A stretch of 41,830 bases of DNA from Deltaproteobacteria bacterium. GTDB taxonomy: Bacteria > Desulfobacterota > Desulfarculia > JACQYL01. The position numbers and the translations under genes are program-made. Below the pieces are notes generated by a model that was given only the letters and a program-made list of their open reading frames with translations, had not been told where the DNA came from and searched no databases. The DNA lies in contig JACQYL010000007.1 of NCBI GenBank assembly GCA_016208165.1, forward strand, positions 1 to 41,830. The letters are read 5' to 3'. Of the stretch, positions 5,984 through 28,612 are shown one piece after another; position 1 is the first letter of the stretch; each line of letters opens with the position of its first letter.

Positions 5984-6913
5984 TTACAGAATTCGCTTCC
6001 ATGTCACATGCGGCTTGATGGCTTCCACGAGATCGAGGGAACACAAGGCGGTGGCGGGCGTAATAGAGGTGGCGGTGCCGGCCGCACACGCCAGGACGGT
6101 GCATTCCTCGAGGGTACTGCCACGGCTGTGGGCGAGAATGAAAGCTCCCAGCGCCGAATCACCGGCTCCTACGGTGGAGTCCACCTGCACGACCGGAGGT
6201 ATTGCCTCAATCGCGGTTTCGGCCGTCACGACAATCAGTCCTTTGGGTCCCATGGAAACGATGACGTGGGATATGCCGGAGTCCACCAATCGTCTGGCTT
6301 CGATGACCACCTCTTCGGTCGATTTCAGCTCTTTGTTACTGAGCCGCTTCAACTCATGCAGGTTAGGCTTTATGAAATCCGGCTTCATCTCGATTCCGCG
6401 ACGCAACGCCTTGCCGTCCGCATCCAGCGCAATTTTGGCGCCGCGTTTTCGAAAGGTGACGATAAACTGGCTGTAGATCCCCGGGTCGATCCCCTTGGGG
6501 ACGCTGCCGGAAATGACGACGTACGTGGGGTCGGGCACGTTCTTAAGCTCTTCATACAACTGTCCCAACTCCAGCATCCGGATCTCGGGTCCCGGACTGC
6601 CAATGGAAAATTGGCGTCCGGTATCTTTTTCCTTGATGATCAAATTCACCCGGGTCGAACCGCCGATCCGTGTGAAATTCGTCAAAACGCCTTCATTGAC
6701 CAACCGACCCTCGAGTTCCAGGCCTTCATACCCTCCGGCAAAGCCCGTCGCAACGCTGTTTCCCCCAAGAGCGCGGATCACGCGGGATACGTTGATGCCC
6801 TTGCCCGCAGCGTACCTTTCTTCAGCGATGGGGCGCAACGTATCGTCGGCCTCCAGGTGATCGAGCACGATGGTCCAGTCCAACGCAGGGTTCAGCGTAA
6901 GCGTGTAAATCAT
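5984..6913 (-). CDS. PfkB-family hexose/tagatose phosphate kinase (1-phosphofructokinase-like)
   Basis: About 310 residues. I place the start at the ATG at 6913 rather than a TTG 15 bases upstream because GAAAGG lies 7 bases before it and family members begin MIYTLTLNPALD. The N-terminal signature GKGINVSRVIRALGG and the C-terminal catalytic signature VDSTVGAGDSALGAF (with the GAGD Asp) are both intact. These enzymes phosphorylate fructose-1-phosphate, fructose-6-phosphate or tagatose-6-phosphate with ATP. No PTS or sugar transporter gene is nearby, so a glycolytic PfkB role is as likely as a fructose-1-phosphate role. The substrate is not fixed by sequence alone. Confidence 0.85.
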   Translation of the reverse strand: MIYTLTLNPALDWTIVLDHLEADDTLRPIAEERYAAGKGINVSRVIRALGGNSVATGFAGGYEGLELEGRLVNEGVLTNFTRIGGSTRVNLIIKEKDTGRQFSIGSPGPEIRMLELGQLYEELKNVPDPTYVVISGSVPKGIDPGIYSQFIVTFRKRGAKIALDADGKALRRGIEMKPDFIKPNLHELKRLSNKELKSTEEVVIEARRLVDSGISHVIVSMGPKGLIVVTAETAIEAIPPVVQVDSTVGAGDSALGAFILAHSRGSTLEECTVLACAAGTATSITPATALCSLDLVEAIKPHVTWKRIL

Positions 6914-21467: not shown

Positions 21468-23237
21468 ATGAATGACAACCGTTCCCGAATCGTATTAACC
21501 GATACACTGAAGACCTATACGTTTGATCAGGATAAGATGCTGGATCCGTTGGAAACCGTGCAACGAGTTAGAGCGCGCTTCGACAGGGTAAACCTGGACG
21601 TGTTGAAAGAGACCGTGCGCATCGATCGCGGCCGGCTGGATATTCCAGTGTTTATCAGTGTTTGCGGTGGAGCAGCGTTACGCACCATCGGCACCAAAAA
21701 GCAAATGGGAAAAGGGGCCACTCCGGCCCAAGCCGAAGCCAGCGCGCTGATGGAGCTGGTGGAACGTTACAGCTTTTTCCATTTTCTAAAAGACCATCCC
21801 TTTATCGCAGCCGAATATCGGTCCGTTGCCCACGATGCCATGCCTTTCCATCACATTGCCGAGGCCGTACACCACGATCCGAACGACCTGGAGCGCGCCC
21901 TCAAAGCACTGGACGGACTGCCTTTGAAATGGGCCTGGGGACGTAACCTCACCCAGGGCCGGGATATGCTCATACCCATAGACTGGTTTTACGAAATTAA
22001 CCAGTTTAACGGACCTTCCGCGGGAAACAGCCTTGAAGAAGCCATTCTTCAAGGAACTTGCGAAGTGGTGGAACGACACGTGTCCGCTCTGATATGCCGT
22101 GGCAGGCTGGAACTTCCAAGCATTGAACCCGGAAGCGTGAAAAGTGAAGCGGCCCTCGAGTTGATCCGAAAATACAGGGCAAATGGGATTGAGCTGTTTA
22201 TGAAGGATTTCACCCTCGGAATGGGCATACCGTCCATAGGCGCCCTCGCCTGGGACCCATCTACTTTTCCCAAACGTAGCGAAATCGTTTTCACGGCCGG
22301 CACGGCAACCGATCCGGAAAAGGCATTGATTCGGGCGCTTACGGAGATCGCCCAGTTGGCCGGCGATTTTGACACCGACGGCGAATATGTTGCCAGCGGC
22401 CTTCCCAAGCCGCGGCGCCTGGACGAAGTACTCTACGTGACGCAAGACCATGGCCCGGCGGTGAGTATCGATCAGCTTCCGAACATTGCCGAGCAAAACA
22501 TGCGTCACGAGGTGGAACGGTGCGTTCAAACCCTGTCCGGAAAGGGCTTCGAACTGTACGTAGTAAACACCACCCATCCGAATATAGACGTGCCGGCCGT
22601 CTATACGATCGTACCCGGCTGTCATTTCCGTGAGCGCTCCAAGGGAACTAGTGTGCCGTTCTTTGCAGCAAAGCTCATCCATCAAAATCTCGATGTGTGG
22701 GAAGCGCTGGAGCGTTTGCAGAACCTCAACCGTTTGTACCCGGACAAATACTACCTGCAGTATTACGAAGGCGTTTGCTACGCAGGTATGGGCGATCAGG
22801 ATTCCGCCATCGCCAAATTCCTGCGAGCGTTGGATCTCGAGCCCGGCCCTGAAGACGCTCCCACGATCCAATGTTACCTGGGCATATGTCACAAAGACAT
22901 GGGTGACTATTCTCGGGCGATACAAGAATTGGAGAAAGCGACCGTTCTGGATCCGGAATGCAAGGAGGCCCACAATGCCATGGGCTTTTGTTTCTTCAAG
23001 CTGAAGGAACATGAAAAAGCCATTGAATGTTTTGAAAACGTACTGCGCATCGACCCGGGTTCCGCCATCGATTATGCCAATATAGCCTCCAACTTGAGAG
23101 AACTAGGCCGCATTGACGAGGCCATACGGCTGTATGGAATGGCCTTGGAATTGGATGCCGGCATTGACTTCGCTCGTCACAATCTCGAGCTGCTGACGCA
23201 ACGGAAAGAGCAAATGGAACCGGGCGCGAATTCCTGA
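21468..23237 (+). CDS. YcaO-domain protein with C-terminal TPR repeats
   Basis: 589 residues. The N-terminal 400 form a YcaO domain with its ATP/Mg residues visible: ASALMELVERYSFF near 90, QGTCEVVERH near 193, and ATDPEKALIRALTEIAQ near 290. Four TPR units follow (about residues 424-575), each ending in a DLEPG, LDPEC, IDPGS or LDAGI type turn. YcaO enzymes use ATP to activate peptide amide oxygens, making azolines, thioamides or amidines. E. coli YcaO also has a C-terminal extension with TPR-like repeats, so the architecture is known, but the substrate is not. The Pro-rich C-terminus of azoline-forming YcaOs is absent. No TfuA, E1-like or dehydrogenase partner is nearby. Ribosome site GAGGTG is 5 bases before the ATG. 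Confidence 0.88.
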   Translation: MNDNRSRIVLTDTLKTYTFDQDKMLDPLETVQRVRARFDRVNLDVLKETVRIDRGRLDIPVFISVCGGAALRTIGTKKQMGKGATPAQAEASALMELVERYSFFHFLKDHPFIAAEYRSVAHDAMPFHHIAEAVHHDPNDLERALKALDGLPLKWAWGRNLTQGRDMLIPIDWFYEINQFNGPSAGNSLEEAILQGTCEVVERHVSALICRGRLELPSIEPGSVKSEAALELIRKYRANGIELFMKDFTLGMGIPSIGALAWDPSTFPKRSEIVFTAGTATDPEKALIRALTEIAQLAGDFDTDGEYVASGLPKPRRLDEVLYVTQDHGPAVSIDQLPNIAEQNMRHEVERCVQTLSGKGFELYVVNTTHPNIDVPAVYTIVPGCHFRERSKGTSVPFFAAKLIHQNLDVWEALERLQNLNRLYPDKYYLQYYEGVCYAGMGDQDSAIAKFLRALDLEPGPEDAPTIQCYLGICHKDMGDYSRAIQELEKATVLDPECKEAHNAMGFCFFKLKEHEKAIECFENVLRIDPGSAIDYANIASNLRELGRIDEAIRLYGMALELDAGIDFARHNLELLTQRKEQMEPGANS

Positions 23238-23347
23238 ACCCGTCAGGTCGCGCCATCCTCACATTTCGGATCGACTGGGCGCTTGACCGGGTGTTGGGAT
23301 TTATCTATGGTTGAATGCGTCCAAAATTCTATCTATCCGGGGGTGTC

Positions 23348-24817
23348 ATGAATCGCTCAATCTGGTTCGCCATAGGTACCGTATGCCTGTTCGCTTCGTC
23401 CCTGTTCACCGCCTGCGACAGCCGTTCGGTGGACAGTCCGACCGTCGCTTCCGTGGAGCCCTCGGCGGCGCAGGTCAAGTCCGTGATCACCATTAACGGT
23501 TCCCACTTTGTCGACTCCTACAGCCAGACGGTCGTTCAGTTCACGGGAGGAAACGCCGTAGTCAAAGACTTCATATCCGTCACCAACTCCGAGATCGTAA
23601 TTCGCGTTCCCAATGTAGGCCAAACGGGCCCCCTCTCGGTGAAGGTGCAGGATGAAATCAGTAACGGAGTGTCTTTTTCGGTGTTCGGCCCGTGGGCGTA
23701 TGTTGGCCATGGGAATGCCAATCCGCTACTGACCGTTATCGACAGTCATGTCAATGAGAGCGCCGAGAGCGTGGAAATCCGGGCCGAAATAGGGCTGGAA
23801 GGCGCTCCGGAGGCCTTGGCGCCCACGCCGGAAGGCGACAAGACGTATGTCTCCCTGCCGTCCATAAATACCATTGTTGTGCTTGATGCCCCCAACAACA
23901 CGATTGCCGGCGTACTGCAGGATGGAGTTGGTCCGGCTCCGTCCGCCATGGCGGCCACCAAACAGGACAAACACAAGCTGTTTGTAGCCAACCGCGGCGA
24001 CCGTTCCGTTACGGTCGTCGATACGCTTACCAACACGGTCATCGCCACGCTGACCGTCTCCGGAGATCCGGATGACGGGCGAACGGATTGGGGTACGGCC
24101 TCCGTAGCGCTGGATCCTTCTTTCCAGACTTGCTACGTGATTTTTAAGGATGAAGGCATCTTGAGGGCCTACTGGGTGGATTCTCTCCAGGTGCGATCTG
24201 AAAACGAGTTCGGTCCTCAGCCGATAAGGCTGCTCGTGCTTCCGAACAACAGCAAGGTCTACAGTCTGAATCAGGCCAGTATCGAGGAAGGAAACGAGAC
24301 CAGCGGATCACTCACTACATTGCTGATCAGCGAGCAACGCAGATTTACGGACGTCACCGTGGGATCGAATCCAACAGACATGGTTGCCGCGGCCAGTGTT
24401 CAGGTGATTGTTGCCAACCGGAGCAGCAACTCCGTCTCCGTCGTGAACGCAGACGGGGACGTGGTCGTAAGAACGTTTGCCGATGGGGAAGTGGGCGTCG
24501 AGCCGGCCGGCGTCACGTTGTCGGGCGATAACCAGTTCATTTACGTAGCCAGCGCAGGCAACGGGTCCGTGTACGTCATCAATCGCGAACAGCTGACCGT
24601 CAACAAAGAGATACCGGTCTCTTCCGGCATAACGGATATCCAATATCGCGACACTGGCGAAGGGGAAAGGCTGTTCGTGCTGAACCCGGTTGAAAACACG
24701 GTGACCGCCATTACTGTCGAAGATGACAAGGACGAAGTCATCTCCTCCGCCACGATCGCGGAAGGAGCCCTCTTCATGTTGGTGGAGGAACTCACCACTT
24801 ACCCGCCGTCTGAATAG
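23348..24817 (+). CDS. Lipoprotein with IPT/TIG domain and YVTN-type beta-propeller
   Basis: 489 residues from the ATG at 23348 (GGGGGTG just upstream). The signal peptide ends in LFTAC with Cys23 lipidated. An IPT/TIG immunoglobulin-like domain (about 32-115, VEPSAAQVKSVITINGSHF) is followed by a propeller with repeated units such as KLFVANRGDRSVTVVDTLTN, VIVANRSSNSVSVVNADG and IYVASAGNGSVYVINREQ. It probably sits on the cell surface or in the periplasm and binds protein or carbohydrate partners. It follows the YcaO gene by 110 bases on the same strand and might be co-transcribed, but there is no functional reason to link them. Confidence 0.82.
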   Translation: MNRSIWFAIGTVCLFASSLFTACDSRSVDSPTVASVEPSAAQVKSVITINGSHFVDSYSQTVVQFTGGNAVVKDFISVTNSEIVIRVPNVGQTGPLSVKVQDEISNGVSFSVFGPWAYVGHGNANPLLTVIDSHVNESAESVEIRAEIGLEGAPEALAPTPEGDKTYVSLPSINTIVVLDAPNNTIAGVLQDGVGPAPSAMAATKQDKHKLFVANRGDRSVTVVDTLTNTVIATLTVSGDPDDGRTDWGTASVALDPSFQTCYVIFKDEGILRAYWVDSLQVRSENEFGPQPIRLLVLPNNSKVYSLNQASIEEGNETSGSLTTLLISEQRRFTDVTVGSNPTDMVAAASVQVIVANRSSNSVSVVNADGDVVVRTFADGEVGVEPAGVTLSGDNQFIYVASAGNGSVYVINREQLTVNKEIPVSSGITDIQYRDTGEGERLFVLNPVENTVTAITVEDDKDEVISSATIAEGALFMLVEELTTYPPSE

Positions 24818-27252: not shown

Positions 27253-28007
27253 TATCGATCTCCTCGATTCTTGCATCTTTACCAAGTAATACTCACATGA
27301 ACATGAATTATAGCGAGCCGTCCGGAGACGACCTTCCGGCAAATTGAACATCGGTACTAGAAGGACCTCGGCCGCGAGCGTTCCAGCCGGCCTTCTCGTG
27401 CGTCATTCCGACCTCTCCGAAAGAACCATACAAGCATAGGAGTCTGCCGAAACAGCTCCGTAGCACCTATGAGACAACCTCGTAAAAGACATCGGATGAA
27501 CTGCGCAATACTTTAGGCTTATAAGTGAGCAGCCCGCTGAAAAAGCCAGGCCGAGTCGGGGTTCAATTTGTTTCATGGCATCGAAGCGATTCAGTTTCCC
27601 CAACTTATATAATGTTTAAGAGCACTCTCCCACTCAGTCCCGTCTCAGCTCAACAACGAATTCCGATGCCCGTCCTTTTTCCCAACGGGCCGTTCTTCAA
27701 CGGCTTACTACTCGAACTTCCTGAATAAGAAAGCACGACACCGCGAAAAGGGATTTATTTCCATTGGCGATAATGTGTCAAAACGGCATCACTTTCAAGC
27801 CCTGATTGGCTGCAGTTTGAGTTCGGGCAGTCGGAAATAGGTTTACAAACCCATCGAAGTTCAGGAAGTGACTGTTCCATGCCTTCGATTTGCCTAGGAT
27901 CAAGGCCTACAGGCACGATTTTTTGGTGGAATTTGGGTGCGAAATCGATAGAATGGGAAAAGTATTTACGTTCATCGCGGATTTCCACGCCAGCGGGAGG
28001 TTGCTCA
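27253..28007. other. About 750 bases with no recognisable gene
   Basis: Short ORFs exist on both strands (for example 27755-28024 minus), but none combines a ribosome site with a known family. The stretch separates the chemoreceptor from the small leader-like ORF at 28008. Its last part contains a GGGAGG ribosome site at 27995-28000 and a loose -10-like TAGAAT near 27950. I see no IS ends, tRNA or repeat array. Confidence 0.5.
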
Positions 28008-28139
28008 ATGAAACGGGAACACAAGGAACGGCTCGGTCGAGCCGAACCACAAAAAAGAACCGGCTATGTAAAACCGAAACTCACTCCTCTGAAGAAGCTC
28101 AAAAATGTTACAGCGGGGTTGGGCTCCCCACAATCGTAA
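28008..28139 (+). CDS. Small ORF (43 aa) with lasso-type RiPP leader spacing
   Basis: GGGAGG at 27995-28000 stands 7 bases before the ATG, an excellent ribosome site for so small an ORF. The first 19 residues are highly charged. Then comes Y20-V-K-P23-K-L25, followed after three residues by K29 (Gly in the usual motif) and after five more by T35. This is the YxxPxLx3Gx5T spacing of lasso-peptide leaders, with Gly replaced by Lys. Only GLGSPQS remains after a T35-A36 cleavage point, too short and lacking the Asp/Glu for a lasso ring. No lasso cyclase, PqqD-like RRE or transglutaminase-like protease gene is in the window. It may be a relic, a precursor processed in trans, or chance. Confidence 0.5.
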   Translation: MKREHKERLGRAEPQKRTGYVKPKLTPLKKLKNVTAGLGSPQS

Positions 28140-28147
28140 TTTGAGGG

Positions 28148-28612
28148 TTACACGATCAGATTCACATTGCCTCCCACCACGATTGGGTTAAAAAAAGACG
28201 CGTTGCCGAACACGCTTGATAGGAGGAACTCCACCGCCGCACTCGAGTTGGTCGCGGGCGAGTCTTCGGAGGCCTCGATCAACGTTACGGGCAGCGGAAT
28301 CGCCTGTCCGCCTTCCTGCGGGGGCTCCGATGGGAGGTTCACCAGGACCTGGGATACTGGGGATGCACTGGCAAACTGCGCGGTGACCTGCAGGTTTTCG
28401 AGTCGTTCCACAATACCCTGCAGGCGCCTCATCTTGTCCACCAGGGCGAAGGCCAAGGCATCATCAATGAGTTTTTCCTGTTCCTCATTTTCGCCCGAAA
28501 GAATGACGATATCCTGGGAAAGAAGCGTTTCCTGATGAGGTTGTACCTTTAAACGCGCGATGGGTACACTCTGACCCTCGTTCAGCAACCCGATAATGCG
28601 TGTTACGTCCAT
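28148..28612 (-). CDS. Hypothetical protein (154 aa), acidic with hydrophobic Gly/Asn C-terminus
   Basis: It starts MDVTRIIGLLNEGQSVPIARLKV; a GAGGCG ribosome site lies about 7 bases upstream. The middle has a short coiled-coil-like helix (DKMRRLQGIVERLENLQV), then a Pro/Ser/Glu-rich stretch, and the C-terminus ends in FFNPIVVGGNVNLIV, resembling an aggregation-prone or anchoring tail. No signal peptide, Cys or catalytic motif. It is convergent with the small leader-like ORF, with stops 8 bases apart. Function unknown; composition makes it a credible gene. Confidence 0.6.
   Translation of the reverse strand: MDVTRIIGLLNEGQSVPIARLKVQPHQETLLSQDIVILSGENEEQEKLIDDALAFALVDKMRRLQGIVERLENLQVTAQFASASPVSQVLVNLPSEPPQEGGQAIPLPVTLIEASEDSPATNSSAAVEFLLSSVFGNASFFNPIVVGGNVNLIV

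Follow-up and report, generated by a model that had tools for sequence, protein, structure and literature searches.

An orphan precursor gene with a lasso-type leader points to a conserved family of very short, apparently undescribed RiPPs

The stretch of DNA analysed here (the window) comprises 41,830 nucleotides of a Deltaproteobacteria bacterium (assembly GCA_016208165.1, contig JACQYL010000007.1, positions 1 to 41,830, forward strand). At 28008-28139 on the plus strand, it harbors an open reading frame (ORF) of 43 codons including the stop, which is probably the orphan precursor gene of a conserved and apparently undescribed family of ribosomally synthesized and post-translationally modified peptides (RiPPs), acting in trans with enzymes encoded on another contig of the same genome, C80, to give a very short linear peptide. 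Membership in this short-core family, a conserved cassette without a lasso cyclase, the catalytic residues of its enzymes, a positioned core serine, and the recurrence of orphan genes are all read from sequence comparisons. No description of the cassette was found in the open-licence literature searched, which leaves out most subscription journals.

The ORF translates to MKREHKERLGRAEPQKRTGYVKPKLTPLKKLKNVTAGLGSPQS. Its Shine-Dalgarno element GGAGGT (27996-28001, plus strand), read from the sequence and scored, matches in 6/6 positions and lies 6 bases 5′ of the ATG, bearing out the very good ribosome site named in an initial annotation of this DNA. The same frame stays open 5′ of the ATG as an 86-residue ORF from 27879; the 43-codon start was chosen because of the ribosome site and because the paralogs are of equal length. 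The predicted leader segment for binding a RiPP recognition element (RRE), YVKPKLTPLKKLKNVT (Y20 to T35; 28065-28112, plus strand), was delimited by alignment with four paralogs and comparison with 42 family members. It carries Y20, P23, L25, K29 at the usual glycine position, and T35, 15 residues after Y20, so that the lasso-leader spacing of the annotation is exact in translation. Cleavage after T35-A36 would leave the seven-residue core GLGSPQS (28116-28136, plus strand), as annotated and as placed by core alignment. This core has no Asp or Glu and hence lacks an acidic acceptor, while Ser40, the candidate site of phosphorylation, sits at T+5, the commonest position of the core serine in the family. 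No NCBIfam or Pfam model matched the peptide.

Family membership is established first within the genome itself, searched as a whole assembly (142 contigs totalling 5.69 Mb, 95.5% complete). The peptide as query has two matches on C80 and one on C16; the latter is taken as chance, its ORF lying on the strand opposite a gene that looks, by eye, like an acyl-CoA dehydrogenase. C80 carries four tandem short-core peptides ending in ...RRPYVRPELRIFGPLKDMTAGNGSPPP, ...KRPYSKPELTGHEKLKNVTSGAPSPN, ...KRDYSKPLLILHDKLKKVTAGPVGSG, and ...KKPYVKPVLKKYLPLGTITASLAPS. A profile of these four, built without the window ORF, recovers it at E=5.3e-8 and finds a sixth peptide on C86 at E=1.5e-5, the next match being at E=0.104; only six such peptides thus occur in the 5.7-Mb genome. 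In a scripted version of the same comparison, the window frame scores 33.5 bits, and the best of 60 dinucleotide-shuffled windows (2.5 Mb) reaches 11.2 bits. The leave-one-out value and the shuffles rule out a decayed or random ORF, and with it the coincidence that the annotation had allowed for. Origin of the window gene by DNA-level duplication from C80 was rejected (no match longer than 18 bases), as was a contaminant contig, the G+C content being similar (0.546 in the window, 0.557 in C80). The tetranucleotide correlation between the window and C80 is 0.728, the highest of the sets compared; two further stretches of this genome, C28 and C86, give 0.499-0.541, and six stretches of other genomes give 0.394-0.502.

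The maturation genes stand together on C80. A lasso-type B1 protein, a PqqD-like RRE (C80 13089-13370, E=2.0e-19), is encoded immediately upstream of a lasso-type B2 transglutaminase-like protease (C80 13360-13797, E=5.2e-15), the sole match in the genome, with an HprK-like kinase downstream of both (C80 13807-14862). Alongside the tandem peptides, on the minus strand, lie the genes of a B12-binding radical S-adenosylmethionine (SAM) protein (C80 16116-17522) and a DUF362 protein (C80 17564-18496). Because all five are on C80, the window gene is an orphan with its enzymes encoded elsewhere. The annotation was right that no maturation genes are near the ORF, yet they are present in the same genome; the genome-wide search that it proposed finds B1 and B2 but no lasso cyclase. 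It had also held that the precursor idea would fall if relatives had no homologous small ORFs and the genome no maturation genes; both were found, with small ORFs on C80 (four) and C86 (one) and more in other genomes. The paralogs, the homologs elsewhere, and the B1/B2 set therefore support its suggestion of an orphan precursor whose leader is of lasso type.

Among solved structures, the lasso RRE TbiB1 is nearest in sequence to the C80 B1. B2 exceeds the NCBIfam lasso_biosyn_B2 cut-off, and its Cys84, His118, and Glu130 are invariant in 12/12 aligned sequences. The assignment of B2 to Transglut_core3 is based on sequence, and a sequence search for a solved B2 structure found none. Its predicted model is confident (predicted local distance difference test, pLDDT, 85), but comparison of this model adds nothing firm, because Foldseek gave no match at E ≤0.001 and VIA-align reached at most Z 5.3 (6tsl, root-mean-square deviation 3.1 over 88 residues), tied with others. 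The kinase keeps the Walker-A residues Gly189, Lys190, and Thr192 in 14/14 sequences, among which L056 contributes two and L055 a weak one. For the radical-SAM protein, similarity was seen to BchE, HpnJ, and the RiPP enzyme ApyD, in each case far under the cut-off. A SynChlorMet cassette was considered and rejected, the matches to NCBIfam ScmC/ScmD being weak and below cut-off and the term being absent from the papers listed by one search.

The predicted model of the DUF362 protein (pLDDT 91) is best matched by the LarA-type racemase 6d6z (Z 17.5, root-mean-square deviation 3.0, 213 residues). Eleven LarA-type matches span Z 14.2-17.5, and all others have Z ≤4.9. His192 and Lys202 are invariant in 14/14 sequences, ten residues apart, a spacing equal to that of His174 and Lys184 in LarA1. 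The model thus assigns the cassette protein to the LarA N-domain fold with its cofactor lysine and catalytic histidine. The matched LarA chains are longer (393-480 residues versus 310), with 12-18% identity, and the sequence match to Mar2 is by itself not significant (E=0.8). DUF362 and the LarA family are placed in the same Pfam clan (PMC11770544). The LarC family (PF01969), taken as a sign that the nickel-pincer cofactor is available, is present in 13/17 genomes and also in 6/14 control genomes; it was not found in G448, G452, G453, and G454 (completeness not stated), all of which have precursors and DUF362 in the radical-SAM locus. Within the RiPP cassette, the DUF362 gene at L006 5564-6496 (minus strand) and 13 homologs combine a predicted LarA fold with the invariant His and Lys.

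A radical-SAM alignment scanned against species genomes returned 74 loci, of which 14 close ones (L045-L058, at least 36% identity) were set apart from 59 remote ones; a further close locus, L071, was dropped as the same record as G091. Together with G016, G091, and the genome of the window, this gives 17 loci, which encode B1 in 12/17, B2 in 12/17, the kinase in 13/17, DUF362 in 14/17, and a nucleotidyltransferase in 9/17, whereas none of the 59 remote B12-radical-SAM loci has any of the five. Contigs shorter than 12.5 kb leave four close loci incomplete; one of them, L057, belongs to a genome with B1, B2, the kinase, and two precursors on another contig. A profile of the six peptides, built from the window's own genome alone, gives 43 matches in 12/16 close cassettes versus 0/59 remote loci (0.93 Mb). 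The cassette is usually accompanied by the nucleotidyltransferase and by tandem short-core precursors, and its hosts are Deltaproteobacteria, Syntrophaceae, Syntrophomonas, and other Bacillota, known from metagenome-assembled genomes. Clustering of the ORFs of at least 90 residues in 13 cassettes leaves only six core families, B2 included, shared beyond three close Syntrophomonas genomes.

The leaders follow the pattern YxxPxL...L..(V/I)T, with Y, P, and T invariant in the 42 family members compared. The aligned position is T in 45/50 profile rows; the others are four divergent L051 peptides and the window row, which is misregistered because the script locked onto sequence further upstream in this open frame. 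The annotation had described the window core as almost absent. It is indeed short, but this is a hallmark of the family rather than a defect, since 6-12 residues follow the Thr in 42/45 cores (14, 14, and 33 in the others). The cores tend to hold one positioned serine. With the 33-residue L051 outlier removed and the correctly read window core added, Ser occurs in 44/45 cores and lies at T+5 to T+7 in 40/45, versus means of 32.6 and 17.1 and maxima of 39 and 27 in 5000 shuffles of the core residues, counts that overstate independence because cores within one locus are related. Over 39 rows, with near-identical leaders of the same locus removed and orphans added, entropy is 0 to 0.8 bits at the leader Y, P, L, L, and T and 3.3 to 3.6 bits at core positions T+3, T+4, and T+7. 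The family thus has the conserved leader, variable core, and dedicated RRE and modifying enzymes in a cassette that mark RiPP precursors.

Ten orphans were found in five genomes: two in the genome of the window (the window gene and that on C86), three each in G016 and G443, and one each in G445 and G454. Over 9.8-41.8 kb of surrounding sequence, no cassette gene was found. In two Syntrophomonas genomes, G445 and G443, the orphan loci are bordered by the same conserved genes; their flanks share 72-94% DNA identity, while most of the peptide-holding stretch gives no alignment. Because the neighbours of the orphans, judged from translations, look like housekeeping genes, position gives no clue to function.

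On this basis, it is hypothesized that the C80 B1 binds the leader at YxxPxL and presents it. The HprK-like kinase would phosphorylate the positioned serine while B1 holds the leader, by analogy with the kinases of lasso peptides and of linear polyphosphorylated peptides (LPPs); HprK homologs phosphorylate the core serine of lasso precursors (PMC8498205) and of LPP precursors (PMC13381572). In genomes that have one, the nucleotidyltransferase might then add a glycosyl-phosphate, with a sugar placed onto the phosphate as in pseudomycoidin. The B12-radical-SAM enzyme and the LarA-fold DUF362 protein may alter the peptide further. Finally, the B2 cysteine protease would cleave behind Thr-x and set free a linear modified product some 5-11 residues long. 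The product of the window gene would be a linear phospho-heptapeptide, GLGSPQS, further altered.

Binding, cleavage, phosphorylation, the final product, and its role are inferred, and several points weigh against this proposal. The kinase falls well under every curated NCBIfam cut-off, and its substrate is putative. The nucleotidyltransferase of other cassettes is not on C80, three members of its family being found elsewhere in the genome. Five of the 50 profile rows lack the Thr (the L051 peptides and the misregistered row noted above), and the C86 core, GLPAPT, has a threonine and no serine. Furthermore, the family is rare, occurring in 6/395 genomes sampled in the phylum, three of these with one weak match each, and G449, G450, and G451 have the radical-SAM gene yet no such precursor (3/17 genomes).

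The nearest known family is that of the LPPs, published in 2026. The two share a discrete RRE, an HprK-like kinase, a nucleoside triphosphate (NTP) transferase, the lack of a macrolactam cyclase, a YxxP leader with Thr at Tyr+15, and a core serine (PMC13381572); an RRE with an HprK-like kinase and without a cyclase is indeed what the cassette holds. A reading of the short-core peptides as LPPs from a phylum new to that family, and not as a family of their own, is considered improbable. Of the published LPP leader motif, YxxPxVLxHQxIxFETxxS (PMC13381572), the short-core leaders share chiefly Y, P, and T, with their spacing unchanged. In LPP clusters, the leader peptidase is the SpI-like LppS and the transporter is MsbA-like; the six core families of the 13 cassettes have B2 instead (no SpI model was run), and no exporter gene is conserved across these cassettes. 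According to the LPP report (PMC13381572), precursors measure 35-200 residues, with a tested case of a 45-residue core, versus mostly 6-12 residues after the Thr here, and occur in Bacillota at 1-3 per cluster versus arrays of up to seven tiny ones; radical SAM and DUF362 go unmentioned in its main text. On present evidence, the short-core family is not an LPP family, given its other protease, short cores, and want of a conserved exporter.

A second alternative, slightly less probable than the first, is that the peptides are never released and serve as leader-guided substrates or regulators, for example with the tail modified in place or the orphan acting as a B1 decoy. The very short cores, the missing conserved exporter, and the scattering of orphans among housekeeping genes fit such a role. 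However, B2 keeps its invariant cysteine, histidine, and acidic residue, and the cleavage-site Thr is nearly invariant, as expected for leader cutting; moreover, cores vary strongly and leaders do not, as expected of products.

The family shares much with lasso peptides, namely the YxxPxL leader with Thr near the cleavage site and, in trans, B1 and B2. NCBIfam lasso models weakly match many of the 42 precursors compared (NF033528, lasso_cyano, 29/42; NF033521, Lasso_leader_L3, 15/42), although the window ORF itself matches neither and the family's cores are too short for a lasso. A true lasso peptide was rejected: there is no cyclase and no acidic acceptor, and the core is too short to thread. 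In the family, Asp or Glu occurs at core position 7-9 in 8/45 cores, and 3/45 are at least 13 residues long. No asparagine-synthetase-like lasso cyclase was found in the 95.5% complete genome, whose two full-length Asn synthases (C14, C117) pass the asn_synth cut-off and fail the lasso-cyclase one; four other Asn_synthase matches are short stretches and stood outside this comparison. It is very improbable that the gene is a relic, a truncated or decayed lasso precursor whose core has lost its C-terminal part, for all that the leader motif, B1, and B2 are of lasso type. Short cores are family-wide and occur in several genera, 16/17 close loci are without a lasso cyclase, and the gene has a perfect ribosome site and retains the Thr and Ser positions.

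The exception among the 17 loci is a different cluster (L055 10001-15730), in which a related radical-SAM gene has as neighbours an Asn synthase of the lasso-cyclase type, a B1, a kinase, and a precursor with WTPPKL that ends in GVSDGPSGSPLS; this cluster may connect true lasso clusters with the cyclase-less cassette. The short-core cassette also resembles the systems of paeninodin-type phosphorylated lasso peptides and pseudomycoidin, which combine B1, B2, an HPr-kinase homolog, a nucleotidyltransferase, and a core serine target. Those systems include a lasso cyclase, a ring acceptor that is acidic, and cores of greater length (PMC8498205); the short-core family has none of these three and has radical SAM and DUF362 in addition.

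The proposed short-core family may, as a more tentative extension, constitute a new RiPP class, with tandem and genome-scattered precursors, cores of about 5-11 residues, lasso-type B1/B2, and no lasso-cyclase ring, in which every core would carry a phosphate (perhaps a glycosyl-phosphate) on one positioned Ser and be altered by a B12-radical-SAM and a LarA-fold enzyme. If true, LarA-type (possibly nickel-pincer) chemistry would enter peptide maturation, for which no description was found in the open-licence literature searched. The pairing of B12-radical SAM with LarA-fold DUF362 would be a testable new one with tiny, exactly encoded substrates. Outside the LPPs, too, recognition and cleavage of a lasso-type leader would be separable from the making of a lasso, in anaerobes that include Syntrophomonas and Syntrophaceae. 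Such genes and orphans will escape genome-mining tools whose rules call for a lasso cyclase, a long core, or a cassette close by.

Around the precursor gene, a 154-residue protein without a Pfam or NCBIfam match (28148-28612, minus strand) ends 9 bases from it on the opposite strand. The YcaO gene that the annotation had placed about 5 kb away is confirmed at 21468-23237 (plus strand), where a YcaO domain is fused to a TPR array and adjoined by a TIG-domain protein (23315-24817). It was rejected as a partner: no YcaO occurs among the C80 genes scanned or the families common to the 13 cassettes, and the YcaO-TPR fusion has its own setting. Elsewhere in the genome, a 170-bp dispersed repeat, 94.7% identical, links C80 (2066-2235) to locus L042 (5913-6082) on C28. 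The same locus (C28:36000-48000) encodes, at 6012-6581 (plus strand), a PqqD-domain protein with its own leader-like C-terminal tail, PFKRPVLEKYTDMSDMLLLDPIHEVDETGWP, among genes for an HprK-like kinase, glycosyltransferase-like proteins, a sulfotransferase-like protein, and a nucleotidyltransferase; it is apparently an RRE fused to its substrate.
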